The notes below the pieces were generated by a model that searched no databases, had not been told where the DNA came from, and saw only the letters and a list, made by a program, of their open reading frames with translations. Shown one piece after another: positions 25,291 to 57,680 of a DNA stretch of 64,000 bases (its first letter is position 1; each line of letters opens with the position of its first letter). The stretch spans positions 434,001 through 498,000 of the forward strand of contig JAIXMF010000016.1 of NCBI GenBank assembly GCA_025201365.1, written 5' to 3'. This DNA comes from Syncephalis plumigaleata (Eukaryota; Zoopagomycota; Zoopagomycetes; Zoopagales; Piptocephalidaceae). Made by a program: the position numbers and the translations under genes.

Positions 25291-26583
25291 CTAATTGTCG
25301 CTACTATTGTTATACGGGACGGGAACCGTGTATTCTGAGCTATAATCATAAGTTGAATTGTCGCTCTTATTATAACCATATGAGTATTTATCCGTGCAGT
25401 TGATATACTTTGTGCCAGATCCATCAGTGCCATAGTAAGTATTGTTCACTGGAGTGCAGTGATTGCAGTTAACTTTGGTACCATTATTGAATGTGTAGGT
25501 TTGATTAGCGTAGGAGGCGGGGACAATGTAGTAATGAGGGTATTTCTTGTACTTGGTGGGCTTGCCAGTGGATTTATATTTCGGCTTGTTCTTGCTGGGA
25601 TAGGGAGCAGGCGGGTAAGGAGTACAAGTAGGTGCTGGGACTGGATAACCAGGTGCTGGGTAAGCAGGAACTGGATAAGCAGGAACTGGATAAGCAGGAG
25701 CTGGGGTTGGATAAGCAGGAACTGGGTAATCAGGAGTTGGATAGGAAGGAGCTGGATATGACGGGGCTGGATAAGCAGGAACTGGGTAAGCAGGGACTGG
25801 ATAATCAGGTGCTGGATAAGCCGGAGTTGGATAAGTCGGAGCTGGATAGGTAGAGGTTGAATATGAAGAAGGAGCGGGATATGGAGAGGTTGTATAGGTA
25901 GAGGTTGGATATGAAGAAGGAGCGGGATATGGAGAGGTTGAATAAGTAGAAGTTGTATAGGTAGAGGTTGAATATGGAGAGGTTGTATAAGTAGAAGTTG
26001 AATATGGAGAGGTTGTATAGGTAGAGGTTGAATATGGAGAGGTTGTATAGGTAGAAGTTGAATATGGAGAGGTTGTATAGGTAGAAGTTGAATATGGAGA
26101 GGTTGTATAGGTAGAAGTTGGATAATCAGGAGCTGGATAGGTAGAGGTTGAATATGGAGAGGTTGTATAGGTAGAAGTTGGATAATCAGGAGCTGGATAG
26201 GTAGAGGTTGAATATGGAGAGGTTGTATAGGTAGAAGTTGGATAATCAGGAGCAGGATATGGAGAGGTTGGATAAGTAGAAGTTGGATAATCAGGAGCAG
26301 GATATGGAGAGGTTGGATAAGTAGAAGTTGGATAATCAGGAGCAGGATATGGAGAGGTTGGATAAGTAGAAGTTGGATAATCAGGAGCAGGATAAGTAGA
26401 AGTTGGATAATCAGGAGCCGGATAAGCAGGGACTGGATAATCAGAAGCTGGTGCTTTCTTGTAGTCCGCCGGAGTATCGCTCGAATAAGTGTCTGCTGGC
26501 TTAGCTTCAGCTATAAAGTGGCCATTGTTTGTGGCGATAGCTAGAGAAGCCACAATCAAGGCGAGATATTTAAATGATTGCAT
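25291..26583 (-). CDS. Secreted Tyr/Pro/Thr repeat protein, probable wall or glue protein
   Basis: A single exon of 430 residues. Signal peptide MQSFKYLALIVASLAIATNN with likely cleavage near IAEA-KP. From about residue 45 to 330 the protein consists of YPAPDYPTSTY and TTSPYSTSTY repeats of 5 and 10 residues. A Lys/Tyr segment (KNKPKYKSTGKPTKYKKYPH) follows. The end is an N-glycosylation-rich domain with NQT, NNT, NCT, NKS, NST and NSS sites and three Cys. Tyr spaced every five residues beside Pro is typical of proteins cross-linked by oxidation. The role as an extracellular coat or adhesive is inferred. Position 26583 is the only in-frame Met before the signal peptide. Confidence 0.85.
   Translation of the reverse strand: MQSFKYLALIVASLAIATNNGHFIAEAKPADTYSSDTPADYKKAPASDYPVPAYPAPDYPTSTYPAPDYPTSTYPTSPYPAPDYPTSTYPTSPYPAPDYPTSTYPTSPYPAPDYPTSTYTTSPYSTSTYPAPDYPTSTYTTSPYSTSTYPAPDYPTSTYTTSPYSTSTYTTSPYSTSTYTTSPYSTSTYTTSPYSTSTYTTSPYSTSTYTTSTYSTSPYPAPSSYPTSTYTTSPYPAPSSYSTSTYPAPTYPTPAYPAPDYPVPAYPVPAYPAPSYPAPSYPTPDYPVPAYPTPAPAYPVPAYPVPAYPAPGYPVPAPTCTPYPPAPYPSKNKPKYKSTGKPTKYKKYPHYYIVPASYANQTYTFNNGTKVNCNHCTPVNNTYYGTDGSGTKYINCTDKYSYGYNKSDNSTYDYSSEYTVPVPYNNSSDN
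25635..26440 (-). repeat. 15/30-bp tandem coding minisatellite
   Basis: The array encodes Y-P/T-x-x-x pentads. Near-identical 60-bp blocks at 26100-26390 show recent expansion, while the part toward 25640 is more diverged. Length polymorphism between strains is expected. Confidence 0.85.
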
Positions 26584-31903: not shown

Positions 31904-32970
31904 TTATTCCTATCATTCAATGTATATCGTATTGCGATTAGTATACCGTAGATGACGGTTGAAATGATGACTTACAAGCTGTTATGCAGAGATATACGGA
32001 TTGTGTACCATAGCGTGATTAGTACATTCATTCATTACGATGAGAAACATTAGCTTACATTCTATCGTAAGGAATATCCATATTGACCGTGTGCCACATT
32101 TTAGTCAGTACACCGTTCGTTGCAACAATCGTATTAACTTACAGGCTACCATACGGGACCATACGTGAATCGTGAATCGTAGTATAATTAGTAATCGTAA
32201 TGCGTAATCAGTGTGACAACTTACGGGCTGTTATATCCAAGTGTATGGATTGTGTACCATTTGCAATTAGTACGTTATTCATTGCAACCAGAGCGCTAAT
32301 AACTTACAAGCTGTTATACGCAAACAAAAATGTACAATGAGCGATATTATAATTAGTATCCCGTCCCTCACAGTCATAATGATAACTTACAATCTGTTTA
32401 TACACAAACATATGTAGTTAGTACCTCATTCATTACAATCAGAATGGAAACTTACCTTCTATCATACACAAGCAGACATGAATAATGAGACATATTGATA
32501 TTAGTACATTGCTCATTACAAGCGAACGGTGCCTTACCTTCTATTATGCAGAAACATACGTGGATCGTGTATCATATCATAATTAGTACAGATAACTTGT
32601 AGCCGTTATGATAACTTACAGGTACTTGAGAATAGTAGTCATACATATTATTTTGATTTGTACTACAATTAGCATAGTACTTGCTATGGTCAATAGGATA
32701 GCTTACGAGGTTGTGCTAACAAATTAATAGGGAGAATAAACATTATAGTATGATTAACATGTTAAAACAACCACTATTATATACATGAACTTACGAGCTA
32801 TCGGTAATCATCGGTGGACAATGAAACAATAGGCTACGATTAGTACATCAATTGATAGGGTCACGGCCAGACATACCACGACGATCCAGGACGGGACTAG
32901 CTTCAACGGCGACCAGACTGGTGAGAGCGACAACGGCGACGGCAATAGCGGTAACGGCAAGGAGCCTCAT
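31904..32970 (-). CDS. Single-codon-exon gene A: secreted peptide precursor
   Basis: Exon 1 (32970-32877) encodes MRLLAVTAIAVAVVALTSLV, then AVEASPVLDRR: a signal peptide followed by a dibasic RR site. It ends in phase 1 at GTATGT. The next exons, in order, are 32795-32797 CTC, 32707-32715 CACAACCTC, 32620-32624 TACCT (which brings the phase to 0), 32538 AAG, 32456 AAG, 32391 ATT, 32308 CTT, 32225 CCC, 32143 CCT, 32059 AAT and 31976 CTT (3 nt each). The last coding exon is 31901-31909 GAATAAACA, where GAA TAA ends the frame. The peptide after RR reads APQPLPKKILPPNLE. Every intron has a GTAAG(T) donor, a TACTAAY/CTAAT branch site, and no usable AG before the acceptor. The splice signals are seen in the sequence. 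That all exons are used is inferred; skipping from exon 4 to the end is the main alternative. Confidence 0.72.
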
Positions 32971-45852: not shown

Positions 45853-48016
45853 ATGTATCTTTCATTCTCCTCAATCACTATCACTGTTACTGCCGTAGCT
45901 GTGCTATTGTGCAGTGCAGAAGCCGTATACCTGCCCAACACCAAGCTTCGCCGTGCCACGGACAGCGACATTAGCTTTACACCGAGTGATGGTGGCAGTA
46001 GCGCCAATGACATGCTTGCTCCGCCGGAAGTGCTAAATGGAATCGATAGCCCCACCGACTCTCAAGGCATTCGTCGTAAATTTGAGACTGGCGAGGAAGG
46101 TGCCGAGTCAGAAAGTGATATCGGCTCCTATAATGTAAGTGACCGTGTTTTGCTTGTTAGATCATTATTAATCGTTTATCTTGGGGTACACAGGGACTTG
46201 TTGATAAATCGCAACCATCACCGACACCCACTACTACTACACTAGTTCCAGTTCCAGTTCTAGTTCCAGTTCTAGCGCGCCCACTACACAAGCTCAAGAA
46301 ACTACACCGACCAAGGATAGTGCTGTCAATAGTCCTACTACTACTCCTACACCGGTGGTCAAGCTTTCGCAGCCTAGCGCTAATAGTAGTGGAACCACGT
46401 CTACCGTTACTTCAGCCGCATCGGCTTCTCCTTCACCGTCGCTTGTATCTCAAATAAGCAACTCGGGAAAAGTCATTTATGTGCCGATATCTAGTGTACG
46501 TGCACCAGAGCATTGTTACGGATCAGACACGCCTAACAATCCATCACTTCAAACAGCTGCCGCCAATGATGATAAGCATACTCCTGAGCGTATTGCTGCC
46601 TATATCAATGTCATCGCTTTGAATCCCGCTTACAGCAAATGTGTCGGTACTCACCGTGCTTGCTACAGTGCCTGTGGTGTCGACAAGGCTTGCTGCGACG
46701 ATGCTTTTATAAAATGCGGACGCGAGACGTGTGACAACATTCTAAAGTCCAATACTAGTTTTACTAGTTGCGAGAATGATTGGGCGTGGGCTGGAAAATA
46801 TCCCGTGGAGTTGAAGCTCAAGTATGCCACCGAGTTTGGTTGTCCCACTTTTCATCAGGCTCAAGTTCAGTGCCAATTGAAGGATTCGGGATTCTTAGGT
46901 TGCGTGCCCACGAATAATTGGGGCAAGTCTAAGCTAGCTTCTGTCAATGATAACAAAAAGGGAAACGATTACGGTGCTAGTCACAATAGTAACAACACCA
47001 AGCTAGTTGCCCGCGATCTACATACAAGCACGAATCCATCAAATCCTGCCGCCACTCCACATAGCCATCCAACTACCACTACTACTCTGCTAGTCGTAGT
47101 AAGCAGCCAGCTTCAAAGGCGAATACTGCAAGCATACCCGTCCGCCATCCAAAAGTTCCCGCTGCACATGTACCCTCAGTCATCCAGAAGCCTGTTCAAA
47201 AGCCAGCTCCCATGACGGCTCATCCACCCAAGCCTGCCAATGCAAAGGCAGCACCTGTGGTAAGCCAAGATAGAAATAAACCTAAAAAGCCCGAGAAAGG
47301 TACTAAGAACAGTTTAGCAAGCGTGGATGACCCGTCCTCAAGTACAGTACCAGTAGTTAATACTGTCCATCGCCTACTGATGCAGCACCGAACACGAATC
47401 CTGACCATAAATCGTCGTCTAGTTCAGCATCTGTCACGAGCATAGCGAAATCTGTACCTACTACTCCCACAACAACAACAACAACGTCATCATCATCGCC
47501 GACTCTTATCATCACACCAACTATTACACCAACTATTACACCAACTATCACGCCCACTGTTACTACTACTACGACTACTACCACGGTTCCTACACAGCCA
47601 CAACCATCAAACCATGTTCCTACCGATACGGCAAGCCCTACCGGTTCACCAACTAGTAGTGATAGTACTACTACTACCACAACGTCAAAGAAAGCATCCA
47701 ATGTTATGAATCAATCTCCTACTACTCCTACTAGTGGTACTGAACCTACTGTATTGGTTAAAGCGCCAACAACAGTGACAGAACATCAATCGAACTCTGT
47801 ACCTACTAGCAGCGTCACTAGTACCACTACCATTACGTCAAGTAGTGCTAGTCCATCGCCCACTACAATCTCACGAGACAACGATGGAAACGCTATTAAA
47901 GTGGTAAACCAGCCAGAATACAATACGCAGCATGTTATGGTCGTAAGAAACTACGTGGCGTGAATCGTATGTACAATGGTTACGGTGATCATTATCGTAG
48001 AGAACCTGACCTCTAA
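45853..48016 (+). CDS. Secreted cysteine-rich (PLA2-like) protein with Thr/Ser/Pro tail
   Basis: Exon 1 is 45853-46134 and exon 2 starts at 46194. The signal peptide is MYLSFSSITITVTAVAVLLC. After about 150 low-complexity residues comes a compact Cys-rich domain (about 46490-46920): HCYGSDTPNNPS, CVGTHRACYSACGVDKACCD, DAFIKCGRETC and FGCPTFHQAQVQCQLKDSG. The H-x-x-C-Y...C-D-x-x-F-x-x-C spacing is like group XII phospholipase A2, but Arg follows the His in place of Asp. The rest is a Thr/Ser/Pro mucin-like tail. It probably ends YRREPDL at 48016 in a frame shifted from the one closing at 47963. Frame corrections are also needed near 46240, 47090 and 47370. It parallels the gene at 20891-23876. 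Confidence 0.65.
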
Positions 48017-48199: not shown

Positions 48200-48358
48200 T
48201 TTATTCAATAAATGATTGAATGATGATCTTGTAGATATATTTCTTGGTCTAAGGAATAATGACTTGAATGACATGGACACTAAATGAGGGTCTTGTGTAT
48301 CAATACATTCTTGACTTGAATACCTATAATATCTACTTGATGATGTCCTTGACTTGCT
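48200..48358 (-). repeat. Shared 3' terminal exon of the single-codon-exon family, copy C
   Basis: Follows a CTACAG acceptor and ends at the AATAAA signal (48200-48205). Very similar to 31695-31848 and 54170-54319, with small insertions. Confidence 0.85.
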
Positions 48359-48413
48359 CTGTAGTCATAATGTATTAGTATGGGTATGATTATTGTGGAT
48401 CATTACTTACTGC

Positions 48414-51400
48414 TTATTCCTATCATTCAATGTATATCGTATTGCGATTAGTATACCGTAGATGACGATTGGAATGATGACTTACACGCTGCTTCTCAGC
48501 CTCCAACTAGGACATACAGCAGTGGATTAGCTTCACGAGATGCTTGACCAAATCAAACGACAAAACTTACTTCTTTCTGTAAATGATCATACGAGGATTG
48601 TACATCCCATTGTAATGAGTGCATGATGCATTATCATTCGAATATCAGCTTACTTGCTATAACAATAGCAATAATACAAGTATGTGTACATTGATTAGTA
48701 TACCGTAGATTGTAATCAGAATAATGACTTACTTCTTTCATACATGATCAAAGTCAATAGTATACCACAGTACAATTAATAGCTATGTAATCGCTGGAAT
48801 GCTGATTACCTCTAACATTTGTAGTTTTATGTGAATCATTCAATGACATTACCATTAGCGTTCACATCTTGTAATCAACATGTCAGCTTACCTCTATTAA
48901 TGTAATCATACACGAATATAGGACATCTTGCAATTAGTTCATTCAGCGTAACATCGAAAAATAACTTACTTCTATCATTTGTAATCACATATGGTGTATT
49001 CATTACGATTAACACATCGTATCCTGTGATGGTGCTAGCTTACGTCCTACCATTCATAATCATATAGAAGACGTAACATTACGATTAGTTCGCGATAATT
49101 TGTAATCGATATGCTAACTTACTTCCTGTTATATGTGATCATAATTGAATTGTATACCAGCTACAATTAGTTCAGCGTATGCTGTAATCATTATTATGAC
49201 TCACGAGCTGATGCGCATAAGCGTAAGTGAATTGCACATCAATTTACAATTAATTTGTCGTGTACGGTAAGCATTATTTTGGCTTACTTTCTGTAACGTT
49301 CAAGCATATGTGGTTGCACACCAATTTACGATTAGTTCGTCGTATGTTATAATCACTATTCTGACCTACCGCCTAATGTGCTAAGTGTAAGTAAGTCATA
49401 TATTAATTCACGATTAGCCCAGCGTATGCTATAATTGCTATGCAAACTTACTATCTGTTATATGTAACACAATTGAATTGCACACCAATTAAAAATTAGC
49501 TGATTGCGTTCTGTGATTACTATTAACTTACGTCCTTTTATATGTCATCATACATGAATTGTATACCATTTGCAGTTAGCTTATCGTATGCTGTAGGCAT
49601 TATGCTAACTTACATACTGCCATTCATAATCATACGTGGATTTCACAATATAATTAGCACATCGTATGATGAAATCAGTATGCTAACTTACTAACTATAG
49701 CGTGTATAATCATACGGAAATTGTATGGTGTATTATGATCAGTCCATAGTATGCTGTAATTGCTATGACGCTTACCGTCTGCCAGTCATAATCATATGTG
49801 AACCGTATAATACATTATGATCAGTCCGCCGTATACTGTAACCATTATGCTAACTCACAAGCTATTATTTATAAACGCATTAATTATACGACACGTTACA
49901 ATTAGCACATCGCCCATTATCATTAAAATACTAGCTTACCCACTGCCATTCATAATCATACGGGAATTATATGCCAATTTACAGTTAGTTCATCGCATGC
50001 TGTTGCCAACGCGTTCACTCACTCTCTATTATTCACAATCATATGTGAATTGTATGTCGCATCGTAATTAATTCATTGTACGATGTAATCGATATGTCAA
50101 CTTGCATCCTGCCATTCGTAATCATAGATGGGTTGCATATCATTTTATAATTAGCTGATTACACGCTGTAATCATTATGCTAACTTACATACTGCCATAT
50201 ATAACAATACATGAATCATATTTCAGTTTACAGTAAGCTCATTGCATACTAAATTCGGTACGTTGGCTTACATCCTATCATTCGTGAATATACATAATTG
50301 TATGTCGCATCACAATTAGCATATCATCCATTGTCATCATAGTAATAGCCTACTATTTGCTATATGTATTCGTATGCAGATAACATGTCACATCCCTATT
50401 AGCATACATTCTACGGTGATTATAATGCTAGTTTACCATCTGTTGTACGTGATAGTACGTGAATTGGTTGTATTTCACACTCCAATTAATGTCTCGTATG
50501 CTTCAATCGAAATGATAACTTACGGCCTAGTGTATTCCATAGTCATAGGTGAGCTACATTTTGGGATTGTAGACCACGTGTTAACTTACCGTCTATGTCG
50601 TGTGATCATCATACACACACACGTATATGAATTGTATGTCGCATTTCACTTAGCATGTCATCCATTGTGATTATTGTGATTATTATTGGAATGCTAGCTT
50701 ACATCTTTCTACATGCATTGTTACAAGTCAATGATGTATCATGCTACAATTAGTATATCGTATTCTATAGTCATCATAATGACTTGCCTCCTATTATTCG
50801 TAATAATGAGTAAATACTATGATTAGTATGCTGTATACTGATACTAGAATGCTAACCTACAGTCTATGCCGTGTAATCATCCATCATGAATCATGTTCCT
50901 CATTTCAATTAACACATCACATATCACGATAGGAATGTCTAGTTACCCTCTGTTACATGGATGCATACGTGAATTGTCAATCAGCTTGTAATTAATCGAT
51001 CGCACACTGCAATGATCATCACTTACATACTATTACTCGTAATCATATGTGAATTGTATGTCATAGGGTAATGAGTACATCAACTAGTAAGACTGGAATG
51101 CTAACTTCTTACAATCTATTATGTATATATATATATATGTGTGTGTGTGATGCATTGCTATTAACACGTCATGCATTAGTATGGAAATGTCCACTTACAT
51201 ACTAGTGCAATCATATGCGAAGAGAATGATGATGGTTGTTGTTGTTAGTAGTACATTATACATGATGCTAGACCAGCAACCTACATCCTGTTACAGGTCA
51301 TCGTACACGTATCATGACATGTCAACTTGTAATGAGCACATCGTATGCTATGATCGAAATGATCACCTACATGCTGTCATGTGTGTGGTGTGTGTGTGTG

Positions 51401-52076
51401 GAATGACATGTGAAGCAATGTGCCATTGCAATTAGTATGACGTATACTGCAATCAGAATACCGCCCACTTACAATCTATTACGCGTCATCATCGGTGAAT
51501 CGAATGCCACATTCCAACGAGTGCTCGCTTACCCACTAATACATGCAATCATACGTGAATCAAATGGCTCATTGCAATGATACTAGTAGCTTACGTGTTC
51601 CTATGCATGATAATCATACGGGAATCGATTGCCACATTCCAATGAGCGTATGGCAAAGTATCATCGTGATTCACAACTCACCTCCTATCATACGAGTATT
51701 GCAATTAGTACATTGTATGTTTATTTAGACAGAATATCAACTTACGTCTGCTTCTATAATAGTAACATATGATTTTGATTTACATTCCAGCCAACACGAT
51801 AGATGTCATGATCACGCATTGTTTAACTCACCAGCTATGATTGATAGCATCATATGTGACATCATCATTAGCATCGCAATCAATGTCATACGATATAGAC
51901 TTACCATCTATTGATTGTCATTAGAAAGACCATTAGATAGTAGCATTACGATTAGCATGTTGACTAGTATCGATGATGATGATGATAGAAATACCAGTGG
52001 AATTTGATGATATGGATGTTGCAGCATTGACTATAGGTTGGCTATTATTGTTATTGTTATCAGCAGATGATTCCAT
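48414..52076 (-). CDS. Single-codon-exon gene C: about 44 internal microexons
   Basis: Exon 1 is 52076-51995, starting MESSADNNNNNSQPIVNAAT and ending in phase 1; it has no signal peptide. Exons 2-4 are ATG at 51905, CTG at 51832 and one of 2, 5 or 8 nt near 51744-51753, all of which set phase 0. Phase-0 exons then start at 51682 (E), 51595 (EH, 6 nt), 51533 W, 51473 I, 51371 H, 51285 D, 51199 Y, 51113 I, 51027 Y, 50947 R, 50861 T, 50788 E and 50703 (KD). They continue at 50590 T, 50524 A, 50437 M, 50354 (QI), 50272 D, 50189 Y, 50106 D, 50023 R, 49940 W, 49859 L, 49776 T, 49692 L, 49614 Y, 49532 D, 49452 I, 49370 A, 49288 K, 49205 L, 49123 E and 49044 D. Exons of 2 nt at 48970, 48892, 48810 and 48733 come next, then 48654 CAA, 48571 AAAGAA, 48486 CGT and 48411-48419 GAATAAGCA. 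Two donors are GC (50788 and 50106 exons). The reading of the 3' end is unsettled. Confidence 0.68.
48486..51907 (-). repeat. Old intron-microexon array, about 82-bp period
   Basis: About 43 units, each one intron plus a 2-8 nt exon. Typical exon spacing is 78-87 bp, with outliers at 60-66 and 102-113. Units share little sequence beyond donor, branch site and acceptor, so the array is old and its splice signals appear to be under selection. Confidence 0.8.
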
Positions 52077-53757: not shown

Positions 53758-54169
53758 TCCAATCCGAGATCCATATACAACCACGCATAGAATGGAGTAT
53801 TACCACATGGCTCCATGGACATTTACAATAGCAACAATTCGAAATTACAAAAATATCATTCAGTATTATTCAGTGCCATAGTTAGTTTAGCGATCATTTT
53901 TGTATACAAGCCTATTTGTAATCTGTATTCTAGTAAACATGTTAGCATTTTCATGCTCACTATGGCAAATCTTTAGTGCTCATCAATGGCAGTGTATTCT
54001 TCAGTATAATATAATGCTTATCAATATTTAACTAATGTCCTTCATATTGTCTGAATCTACACATCATCATCATTTCATAATTCTCCATCAACAATGACAC
54101 GTACACCTGTTACAACCATCATGGCTGGCTATATTCTATTGAAATGATTGTATGCATATAATTGACATA
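53758..54169. other. Convergent spacer carrying a duplicated flank
   Basis: 3' flanks of the unknown gene (+) and of gene B (-). The segment 54046-54165 recurs at 59515-59655. Confidence 0.6.
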
Positions 54170-54175
54170 TTTATT
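54046..54175 (-). repeat. Duplicated 3' flank of gene B
   Basis: Shares CTACACATCATCATCATTTC, GTACACCTGTT, CAACCATCATGGCTGG and the AATAAATATGTC end with 59515-59662 downstream of the intronless relative. The duplication therefore included sequence beyond the poly(A) site. Confidence 0.85.
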
Positions 54176-54319
54176 CAATAAACGATTGAATAATCTTGTA
54201 GATATATTTCTTGGTCCAAGGAATAATGACTTGAATGGCATGGACACTAAAGGGACTTGCACCAATCCATTCTTGACTTGAATACCTATAATATCTACTT
54301 GATGATGTCCTTGATTGCT
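54170..54319 (-). repeat. Shared 3' terminal exon of the single-codon-exon family, copy B
   Basis: Highly similar to 31695-31848 and 48200-48358, with one base fewer near its acceptor end and a 3-nt difference further on. AATAAA corresponds to 54170-54175. Confidence 0.85.
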
Positions 54320-54374
54320 CTGTAATCATAGTGGATTAGTATGGGTATGATTATTGTGGATTGTTACTTACCGC

Positions 54375-57300
54375 TTAATGACCTCGCTATTTAATCAATA
54401 TAGATTATATTGTCATTGGTACCTTATAGATTACAAATAGAATAGTAACTTACGGCCTATCATATAAGAACATATGTGAATCATGTACCATAGTGTCATT
54501 AGTAAATCATATATTAAGAGCGGGCGATAACTTACGGCCTATAATAAGGAAATATGTGAATCATGTACCATAGTGAGATTAGCGAACTATAGATCAAGAG
54601 CAGATGGTAACCTACCTCCTATCATACAAGAACACATGTGGATCATGTACCATAGTGATATTAGTGAATCGTAGATCAAGAGCAGATGATAACCTACCTC
54701 CTATCATACAAGAACACATATGAATCATGTACCATAGTGATATTAGTGAATCGTAGATTAAGAGCAGATGGTAACCTACTTCCTATCATACAAGAACACA
54801 TGTGAATCATGTACCATAGTGAGATTAATGAACCATAGATCAAGAGCAGGCGGTAACTTACTCTCTATTATACAAAAATATACATGTGCCATGTACCATA
54901 GTGATATTAGTGAACTATAGATTAAGAGCAGGCGGTAACTTACTCTCTATTATACGAAAATATACATGTGAATCATGTACCATAGTGATATTAGTGAACT
55001 ATAGATCAAGAGCAGGCGGTAACTTACTCTCTATTATACAAAAATATACATGTGCCATGTACCATAGTGATATTAGTAAATCATAGATTAAAAGCAGATG
55101 ATAACCTACCTCCTATCATACAAGAACACATATGAATCATGTACCATAGTGATATTAGTGAATCGTAGATTAAGAGCAGATGATAACCTACCTCCTATCA
55201 TACAAGAACACATGTGAATCATGTACCATAGTGATATTAGTGAACTATAGATCAAGAGCAGGCGGTAACTTACTCTCTATTATACAAAAATATACATGTG
55301 CCATGTACCATAGTGATATTAGTAAATCATAGATTAAAGCAGATGATAACCTACCTCCTATCATACAAGAACACATATGAATCATGTACCATAGTGATAT
55401 TAGTGAATCGTAGATTAAGAGCGGATGGTAACCTACTCCTATCATACAAGAACACATGTGAATCATGTACCATAGTGAGATTAATGAACCATAGATCAAG
55501 AGCAGGCGGTAACTTACTCTCTATTATACGAAAATATACATGTGCCATGTACCATAGTGATATTAGTAAACCATAGATCAAGAGCAGGCGGTAACTTACT
55601 CTCTATTATACGAAAATATACATGTGCCATGTACCATAGTATAATTAGTAAACCATAGATTAAGAGAGGGCCATAACTTACGGCCTATCATACAAGAACA
55701 CATGTGAGTCATATGTCATAATGTAATTAGTAAATTATTCATTAAAACTAAAATGCCGACTTACTTTCTATTGTAGACAATTATACATGGATCATGTGTC
55801 ATATCGTGGTCAGTACTCATTGATTACAATCTGAACGGTAACTTACGGCCTAACATACAGGAACATACGTAGATTATGTGTCATATCGTGATTAGTACTC
55901 ATTCATTCATTACAATTGATGACTTACTATCTATCATACAGGAACATACGTGGATCATGTGTCATATCGTAGTTAGTACTCATTCATTGTAATCTGAACG
56001 GTAACTTACGGCCTATCATACAGGAGCATACGTGGATTATGTGTCATATCGTGATTAGTACTCATTGATTACAATCTGAACGGTAACTTACGGCCTAACA
56101 TACAGGAGCATATGTGGATCATGTGCATATCGTGGTCAGTACTCATTGATTACAATTTGAACGGTAACTTACTTGCTATCATATAGGGGCATGTGTGGAT
56201 AATGAATCACATTAGTATTAGTACCTCATTCATTACGGTCAGAATGATAACTTACGGCCTAACATACAGGAACATATGTGGATCATGTGTCATATCGTGG
56301 TCAGTACATCGTTCATTACAATCTGAACGGTAACTTACCTCCTATTATACAGGAACATATGTGGATCATGTGCCACATAGTGGTTATTATATCATTCATT
56401 CTAGTCGGAATGGTAACTTACAAACTATCATATGGGGACGTACAGGGCCATGTGTCAATAATGTGGTTAGTACATTCATAAATCATAACTGGAATACTAG
56501 CTTACTTGCTATAACACGCAAGCATACGTGGATTATGTGCCAATAATGTGGTTAGTACCTCATTCATCTAAGCCAAAATGGTAACTTACAGCCTGTCATA
56601 CAGAAACATATGCAGATCATGTGTCGTATTATAGTTAGTATTCATTTATTACAATCAGCTGATCACTTACTTTCTATTATACACAAACATATGCAGATCA
56701 TGTGTCATAGGGTAGTTAGTACCTCATTCATTGCAGTCAGAAGTATTAGCTTACGGTCTGACATGCACAAGCACACGTAGATCATGTTCCATATTATCAT
56801 TAGTATATCCATCGATTACAATCAGGAGAATAACTTACTTTCTATCATACAGGAGTATACGTTGATCGTGTGCCAATAATCTGGTTAGTACGTCACATAG
56901 TGCGAGCAGAATGACAACTTACAGGCTGGTATACAGGAACATACGCGAAACATATGACATATTATAGTTAGTATCTCATTCATTACGGTCAGAATGGTAA
57001 CTTACGCCCTATCATACAACATCATATGTGGATTATGTGCCATAGTATAATTAGTACCTCATAGATTACGGTCAGAATGGAACTTACACGCTGATATATA
57101 AGAACACATGTGAATTGCGTCCCATATCGGAGTTAGTACCCGTTTATTACGGTCAGAATGATGGCTTACCATCTATCATACAGGAGCATACGTGGGTCAT
57201 TTGCCATATCGTGGTTATTATATCATTCATTCTAGTCGGAATGGTAACTTACAAACTATCATACAGGAGCATACGTAGATCGTGTATCATATCATAATTA

Positions 57301-57680
57301 GTACAGATAACTTGTAGCCGTTATGATAACTTACAGGTACTTGAAATAGTAGTCATACATATATTTTGATTTGTATTACAATTAGCATAGTACTTGTTAT
57401 GGTCAATAGATAGCTTACCAGCTATTATTTACAAATCAACATGTGGAATAAACATTACAGTGTGATTAGTATGTCCAAACAACCACTTATATACATGAAC
57501 TTACGAGCTATCGGTAATCATCGGTGGACAATGAAACAATAGGCTACGATTAGTACATTAATTGATAGGGTCACGGCCAGACATACCACGACGATCCAGG
57601 ACGGGACTAGCTTCAACAGAGACCAGACTGGCGACAGCGACAACGGCGGCGGCAATAGCGACAACGACAGAGAACTTCAT
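54375..57680 (-). CDS. Single-codon-exon gene B: 39 internal microexons encoding a secreted peptide
   Basis: Exon 1 (57680-57587) starts MKFSVVVAIAAAVVAVASLV, then SVEASPVLDRR. Exons 57505 CTC, 57419 CTG and 57335-57339 TACCT give APVP and phase 0. Single-codon exons then start at 57253 F, 57170 M, 57088 R, 57006 G, 56923 P, 56839 K, 56755 T, 56671 K, 56590 A, 56506 Q, 56422 F and 56339 E. They continue at 56256 A, 56173 Q, 56092 A, 56010 A, 55928 I, 55847 A, 55765 K, 55682 A, 55600 R and 55518 R. A 2-nt exon (55437, GA) follows. Then come 55355 E, 55274 R, 55192 E, 55110 E, 55028 R, 54944 R, 54862 R, 54780 E, 54698 E, 54616 E, 54536 A, 54454 A and a 15-nt exon 54372-54386 (RGH then TAA). All sister units of the 2-nt exon have GAG. 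If it lacks one base, the chain stays in phase 0 and gives a charged helix. If real, the frame shifts and ends EVIKRAIKDIIK at the TAG at 54295-54297. Confidence 0.75.
54450..55690 (-). repeat. Recently amplified intron-plus-codon units
   Basis: Fifteen near-identical units of 80-84 bp in two subfamilies. GAG units have a GTAGGT donor and end TTGTATGATAG; AGA units have a GTAAGT donor and end TGTATAATAG. Their order (5' to 3') is mixed in runs, as expected from unequal exchange of one to several units. Confidence 0.9.
55740..57507 (-). repeat. Older half of array B
   Basis: About 21 units with the same 81-84 bp period and TACTAAY or TACTGAC branch sites, more diverged than the 3' half and with many different codons. 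Confidence 0.85.

Follow-up and report, generated by a model that had tools for sequence, protein, structure and literature searches.

Syncephalis plumigaleata (Zoopagales, Zoopagomycota), which lives as a parasite of other fungi, very probably encodes a large family of secreted prepropeptides whose hypervariable mature part is written almost wholly in exons of a single codon that would be spliced sequentially. The member described here, gene B, lies on the minus strand at positions 57680-54170 of the window that we analysed, a stretch of 64,000 nucleotides of contig JAIXMF010000016.1 (assembly GCA_025201365.1, positions 434,001 to 498,000). The anatomy of the gene, the codon frame of the arrays, the existence of the family and the exon junctions retained in intronless copies can be read directly from the genomic DNA, and they are presented here in that order.

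Between 57680 and 54167 the minus strand of gene B holds 36 sites of the form AG-NNN-GTARGY, in which acceptor and donor are separated by exactly 3 nt, against a mean of 0.1 and a maximum of 2 in 1000 dinucleotide-preserving shuffles. An earlier note on this DNA had listed 39 such sites repeated every 81-84 bp; the regular array is real and far above the shuffles, but the count is 36, accompanied by one 5-nt and one 2-nt site, and the spacing is 80-86 bp except where two longer intervals, 163 and 166 bp, each hold one of the sites of other length (TACCT, 5 nt; GA, 2 nt). When acceptor-donor gaps of 0-12 nt were scanned in the same segment, the 36 matches at 3 nt were joined by six at 0 nt, six at 1 nt, two at 2 nt and one each at 5 and 11 nt, with none at the remaining lengths. 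By eye, the matches at 0 and 1 nt fit a second AG within the codons GAG and AGA. One of the two at 2 nt is the GA site and the other lies inside the stop exon. A branch-like site (loose TACTAAY pattern) was found upstream of 34 of the 36 acceptors, most commonly at a distance of 41 nt, and an AG intervenes between the two in 2 of these 34 cases, so that the proposal of a branch site with no usable AG before each acceptor holds for most of the array. With a GT donor, a TACTAAY-like branch site and an AG acceptor, the array introns have the signals of spliceosomal introns.

Gene B opens, as had been proposed, with a signal-peptide exon of 94 nt (57587-57680), which encodes MKFSVVVAIAAAVVAVASLVSVEASPVLDRR and has one additional base, leaves the frame in phase 1 and has relatives at at least 150 places in the genome; the signal peptide is followed by a dibasic RR at the end of the exon that we take to be a Kex2-like site. 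Three leader exons follow, all on the minus strand like the rest of the gene: CTC (3 nt, 57505-57507), which also follows the signal exon in many other gene models, CTG (3 nt, 57419-57421) and TACCT (5 nt, 57335-57339), in whose place many other models likewise have exons of 5 or 2 nt and which sets the frame of gene B to phase 0 (94+3+3+5 = 105). The first array block (55518-57255), part of the segment compared with the shuffles, consists of 22 single-codon exons separated by introns of about 80 nt (TTT ATG CGT GGC CCT AAA ACC AAA GCT CAA TTT GAG GCC CAA GCC GCC ATA GCC AAA GCC AGA AGA, that is F M R G P K T K A Q F E A Q A A I A K A R R). It is separated by the 2-nt site GA (55437-55438), the sole length inside the array proper that is not a multiple of three, from a second block (54454-55357) of 12 single-codon exons (GAG AGA GAG GAG AGA AGA AGA GAA GAG GAG GCC GCC), which is made of tandem block duplications with a period of about 412 bp, or five units. 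The gene closes with a 15-nt stop exon, CGAGGTCATTAAGCG (54372-54386), recognised in an alignment of the 3' ends of the family and carrying a phase-0 TAA at 54375-54377 just before the last intron, and with a terminal exon (54165-54319, the 3' end at 54165 being approximate) that is mostly 3' untranslated region (UTR), is alike between members and contains AATAAA at 54170-54175, in agreement with the shared terminal exon that had been noted.

Whether the triplets are codons was examined across the family. In 608 triplets from 29 arrays no stop was found, against 5 and 59 of 525 in the other two frames, where 15.8 are expected in the codon frame from base composition, giving a probability of about 1e-7 if positions are taken as independent, and two loci added afterwards had no stop in 87. 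These 29 arrays were left from starting chains of 727 triplets with 6 stops after L009 plus, L010 plus, L025 (a copy of L022), L034, the first chain of L031 and two later chains of L028 had been dropped; the removal was decided after the output had been seen, on grounds of spacing, irregularity and duplication, and all 6 stops lay in the dropped L010 plus, first L031 chain and L034. The array codons are enriched for Trp (20 vs 3.7 expected), Cys (40 vs 18.9) and Lys (45 vs 16.6) and depleted in Ser and Val. Pairs of neighbouring cysteines occur in 9 arrays, where shuffling of codon order gives 3.7 (P 0.00085), and several arrays spell peptides of the form C...CC...C, such as CEDGFVRMPEFRNKCCKIMEGHNARSTVCAA in L031. 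Among 66 aligned positions of the unit, the three exon positions rank first, second and fourth in variability (0.03, 0.04 and 0.12 bits).

These results bear on the idea that the array is a non-coding minisatellite within one long intron, the signal exon being spliced straight to the last exons and the splice-like motifs being by-products of duplication. The array is indeed a tandem repeat, and the second half of gene B consists of block duplications. But a satellite would not keep a 3-nt slot free of stops among the most variable positions of its unit, nor would it account for the Cys-Cys pairs beyond chance in the peptides of other members, or for an intronless copy (see below) that holds six consecutive small exons of array genes. 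Coding constraint is thus present within the unit, and we consider the minisatellite explanation very improbable. A protein read straight through the tandem repeat was ruled out as well, since the unit lengths in gene B (80-86 bp) are no constant multiple of three.

The architecture is widespread in the genome. Exact matches of ATAGNNNGTAAGTTANCNTT number 369 in the 32.6-Mb assembly and 0 for the reversed control. With the gap widened to 4-20 nt, the pattern gave 31 matches, some of them on near-copied contigs, against 9 for the reversed control; exon length seems to go mostly in whole codons, because 26 of the 31 are 6 nt. As 95 of the 608 array sites match the ATAGNNNGTAAGTTANCNTT pattern, the genome would hold very roughly 2,400 three-nt exons, an estimate that is raised by near-identical contigs and lowered by the choice of loci through the pattern itself. 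For the analysis of the family, 27 genome stretches holding ATAGNNNGTAAGTTANCNTT-type sites were taken. A signal exon like MKFSAVIAIAVAVVALTSLVAVEASPVLERR was found in 25 of them at E < 0.001 (in L025 it is in pieces and in L034 there is none), and the shared terminal exon in 26, being absent from L034. The exact junction of signal exon and first intron occurs at 90 places in the genome and the junction pattern of the stop exon at 41, the control giving 0 in both cases. Under a strict pattern, 23 of the 29 arrays are succeeded by a short exon that carries an in-phase TAA ahead of the last intron; among the six misses, L020 and L021 have an immediate TAA, L010, L028 and the end of gene A (a sister of gene B in the window) show a TAA by eye, and the sixth is the first half of gene A. 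The terminal exon had been considered as coding, and this was dropped after the 3' alignment, since the in-phase TAA exon follows most of the arrays. Pfam gave only weak matches, to one or two family members each, and the Protein Data Bank (PDB) gave no match for family members.

Some members deserve separate mention. L028 (contig C58) and the region C223:612400-614570 have arrays with many two-codon exons of 6 nt, e.g., CCACGT and AGACGT, and in L028 these spell a proline/arginine-rich tail behind a Cys-Cys peptide. The near-identical loci L022 and L025, on two contigs, differ by several 1-base gaps and 9 substitutions, too few for a comparison of exons with introns; the single-base gaps hint at alternate haplotypes or at base errors of the assembly. 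Two database proteins outside the named assembly, P0021 and P0022, have related signal exons, and the family is probably present in another organism, because P0022 appears to continue past the signal exon into the beginning of the same intron.

Evidence on exon boundaries that does not depend on the arrays themselves might be sought in members that lack introns. Twelve places with a signal exon and a long open frame were examined, and by reading, 11 of them reach the terminal-exon sequence without introns, while L043 retains intron-like remains. The stop exon (TAAGCR or a near variant) is joined directly to the terminal exon in 5 of the 12 (L036, L040, L041, L046 and L047). In L040 and L041, which are near-copies of each other, the pieces CGTCGTG-CTG-TTG-TCGAAC-GCC-GTG-CTC are contiguous, and the same pieces are six consecutive exons spread over about 500 bp in L015, L017 and L029, the first five of them also in L026. 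TTG, TCGAAC and GCC (and CTC in L015, L017 and L029) were already in the gene models before the copies were compared, while CTG (followed by a GC donor) and GTG (followed by the donor GTACGT) had been missed by the gene finder and were located only through the prediction from the intronless copy; a GC donor follows the first leader exon in four genes. The intronless copies therefore show these exon boundaries, whether they are retrocopies or intronless ancestors; gene B's own array lies outside what they cover. As to their origin, we think it rather unlikely that the intronless members are ancestral and that intron-like elements (introners) inserted between codons gave rise to the arrays, in place of retrocopying. 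In favour of such a history, the array introns are related to each other and several intronless members (L037, L038, L044) have long open frames, but the array units resemble tandem duplicates of a codon plus its intron, and the stop exon is joined to the terminal exon at the splice junction in the five copies named above. Two features of these groups may be added. In L015, L017, L026 and L029 the reading frame of the leader subtype CTG-TTG-TCGAAC-GCC-GTG continues into another ERR ahead of the mature peptide, and the intronless members L027, L037 and L044, whose long open frames have a mature part that looks Gln-rich and coiled-coil-like by eye, have the family signal exon and 3' UTR sequence in common.

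Two public protein models of S. plumigaleata have the array codons in sequence: P0003 and P0007 hold 38 of 43 and 39 of 44 codons in order (L048 and L049), compared with at most 17 and 15, respectively, in 500 shuffles of the order. In a genome search with a joined 182-residue query, the 51 residues from P0007, its mature part, had no contiguous match and the tail alone of P0003 was matched (C362:258174-258260), while the parts from P0010 and P0005 were matched contiguously. Because the two models omit some of the codons, annotation of genes with single-codon exons needs care. Altogether, the suggestion of the earlier note that each exon contributes one codon to a secreted peptide finds support in the stop-free codon frame and the shared signal and 3' exons, and is further backed by the signal-exon junctions, the junctions of the intronless copies and the two protein models.

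Several points weigh against this reading and are gathered here. When the arrays were read in the other two frames across neighbouring exons (only neighbours less than 100 bp apart were counted), 5 of 525 and 59 of 525 triplets were stops, where composition predicts 14.9 and 53.9 and shuffles of codon order 8.4 and 57.4; one shifted frame is therefore closed by few stops only, and its count is not clearly different from the shuffle mean of 8.4. The arrays were found through their splice-site pattern, and AG, GT and G+5 are consequently fixed by selection in the conservation profile. The protein models P0003 and P0007 may be ab initio predictions, in which case they represent agreement and not transcripts. 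A search for 11 array peptides in one piece returned no intronless copy, an empty answer that is uninformative for a search of this kind. Finally, the passage from signal peptide to array is ambiguous in part of the family. The signal exon ends in phase 1, and leader exons that are often 3, 3 (or 9) and 5 (or 2) nt long restore phase 0. In 26 models (L010 and the intronless start in L027 gave none), the frame carried from the signal exon reached the canonical stop in 20, compared with 9 and 13 for the shifted frames, and had the best score in 20, in a scoring with a built-in bonus for canonical stops; the two one-base shifts had the top score, ties included, in 1 and 8 of the 26. Some of the exceptions are genes in which the gene finder skipped an exon, and the anchored gene finder did miss exons, among them those with GC and GTACGT donors. 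The frame through the leader exons is thus supported, with exceptions, and it is not proven gene by gene, because shifted frames sometimes score best or tie and also reach stops.

Two further points of this kind concern gene B itself. Its chain reads MKFSVVVAIAAAVVAVASLVSVEASPVLDRR-APVP-FMRGPKTKAQFEAQAAIAKARR as far as the 2-nt site, which breaks the frame: with that site spliced in, the frame shifts and stops at a TAG at 54295-54297, and with the site skipped it stops at the family TAA, so that the peptide beyond residue 57, its last third, is in doubt. In addition, the AGA and GAG units have a second AG inside the codon, which makes the acceptor ambiguous in that half of the gene. Gene B might therefore be a decaying copy within a real family of one-codon-per-exon genes, the 2-nt site and the low-complexity AGA/GAG half representing lost constraint, a possibility that we take seriously without favouring it. 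The tandem blocks of the second half fit decay, and no near-identical second copy of 55380-55700 was found for comparison, the best long match outside the array being about 70%; but the signal exon, the leader exons that correct the phase, the stop exon and the terminal exon are all present, and the frame is open to a stop whether the 2-nt site is spliced in or skipped. Gene B illustrates the architecture well, but L031, L032 and L049 are cleaner examples.

From the signals in the DNA we infer that these genes are spliced in vivo in a fixed order, that their products are secreted and that they might have a role toward the host fungus. A conserved signal-peptide exon and a conserved 3' exon flank the hypervariable mature peptide, whose unit is one codon plus an intron of about 80 nt; the intron has a strong GTAAGT donor, a branch site resembling TACTAAY about 41 nt upstream of its acceptor, and a final AG. 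Once the leader exons had set phase 0, each 3-nt exon would add one amino acid until the TAA before the last intron is reached. Ordinary spliceosomal signals combined with short introns suggest that the introns are recognised across the intron. With only 3 nt between each acceptor and the donor that follows it, simultaneous splicing of adjacent introns is unlikely, and they would therefore be removed one after another; every step would add one codon and leave the next donor intact, akin to recursive splicing with one codon retained each time. The arrays could grow and shrink, with the frame preserved, through tandem duplication of units made of a codon and its intron. Secreted peptides that perhaps act on host fungi would fit the signal peptide and dibasic site as well as the cysteine patterns and the hypervariability.

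The window contains two sister genes on the minus strand. Gene C (31904-32970) has its signal exon at 32877-32970, followed by CTC, CACAACCTC, TACCT, eight single-codon exons and GAATAA, and reads MRLLAVTAIAVAVVALTSLVAVEASPVLDRRAPQPLPKKILPPNLE, ending at the stop. Gene A (48200-51907) is a more diverged array of some 25 three-nt exons (51907-48411), including GTGAGT and GC donors, that ends in GAATAAGCA and the shared terminal exon; the family stop exon is present, the family signal exon was not recognised at this gene, most intron positions are variable too, and a codon series similar to it opens contig C62 (L034). Two other open frames were noticed in the window. One (25291-26583, minus strand) encodes 430 amino acids with a signal-like start and long repeats of the YPTSTYPAP type, has no Pfam match and is perhaps a cell-surface or secreted protein; the other (46355-47215, plus strand) is weakly similar, below the Pfam cut-off, to group XII secretory phospholipase A2.

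Three-nucleotide exons are regarded as rare oddities near the limit of the spliceosome, and the internal exons of aphid bicycle genes, one of the closest parallels, are longer than one codon. Among the matches listed in searches of the open-licence literature, none described arrays of single-codon exons or this Syncephalis family, and the claim that the architecture is undescribed holds within those searches; a paper that names S. plumigaleata uses its genome for binning. The comparisons that follow draw on excerpts of the sources cited. Isolated exons of 1-3 nt indicate that the spliceosome can use such sizes: plants have microexons in this range (PMC8831610), among them the 1-nt exon of Arabidopsis APC11, for which intron definition combined with recursive splicing was suggested (PMC4674806), Drosophila homothorax has a 3-bp exon (PMC7392893) and Fusarium a one-nucleotide exon (PMC12940212). 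These are single tiny exons, whereas the Syncephalis arrays have dozens in a row. In another fungus, the duplicated lipS genes of Dactylellina, reported in a paper on stwintrons, have two 3-nt exons among more than 10 introns, two per gene and no codon array (PMC5639578).

The nearest likeness in gene design is found in animals. The 35 micro-exon genes (MEGs) of schistosomes have a signal peptide as conserved motif and many very small exons with lengths mostly divisible by three (given as 6-81 bp in the main text and 3-81 in the abstract, mostly 15 bp) between introns of 0.1-5 kb, and alternative splicing adds variants (PMC10526429). The Syncephalis family likewise combines a signal peptide with numerous tiny exons whose length is mostly a multiple of 3 nt, and resembles the MEGs as a parasite family with a conserved signal peptide and variable, presumably secreted products; it differs in a mature peptide made nearly entirely of 3-nt exons, in related tandem introns of about 80 bp and in being fungal. 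Descent from MEGs finds no support in a database search with the family alignment, in which the 8000 best candidates were scored and 20 proteins were returned, 17 named as S. plumigaleata, one further from NCBI and two from other collections, and none named Schistosoma. The aphid bicycle genes form a fast-evolving family of putative effectors that are secreted, and their many tiny internal exons share one phase; one related gene has >100 microexons (PMC9168663). The Syncephalis family resembles them in rapid evolution, probable secretion and tiny same-phase exons, but the internal exons of bicycle genes are almost all phase 2, at about 17 exons per gene, whereas the array exons fit phase 0, and the excerpts of that paper contain no mention of one-codon-exon arrays on related short introns. 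As far as searched, a large family in which nearly every residue of the mature peptide has its own 3-nt exon is an extreme design for which we found no description.

This genome appears to write small secreted peptides with very many 3-nt exons, dozens of them consecutively. The minimum exon length that can be spliced constitutively thereby becomes testable, as do ordered splicing where neighbouring sites overlap, the accuracy with which a short message undergoes some 40 splicing events in succession, and the capacity of gene architecture itself to generate a variety of peptides. Nearly all array exons comprise exactly one codon in phase 0, and any such unit could be skipped without loss of frame. 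It is tempting, if speculative, to regard these genes as combinatorial libraries, in which one locus could yield many secreted peptides differing by single residues through a 5'-to-3' "codon ratchet" of splicing, while duplication of units would insert or delete residues over time. If this were true, the arrays would constitute a diversity-generating system of a mycoparasite.

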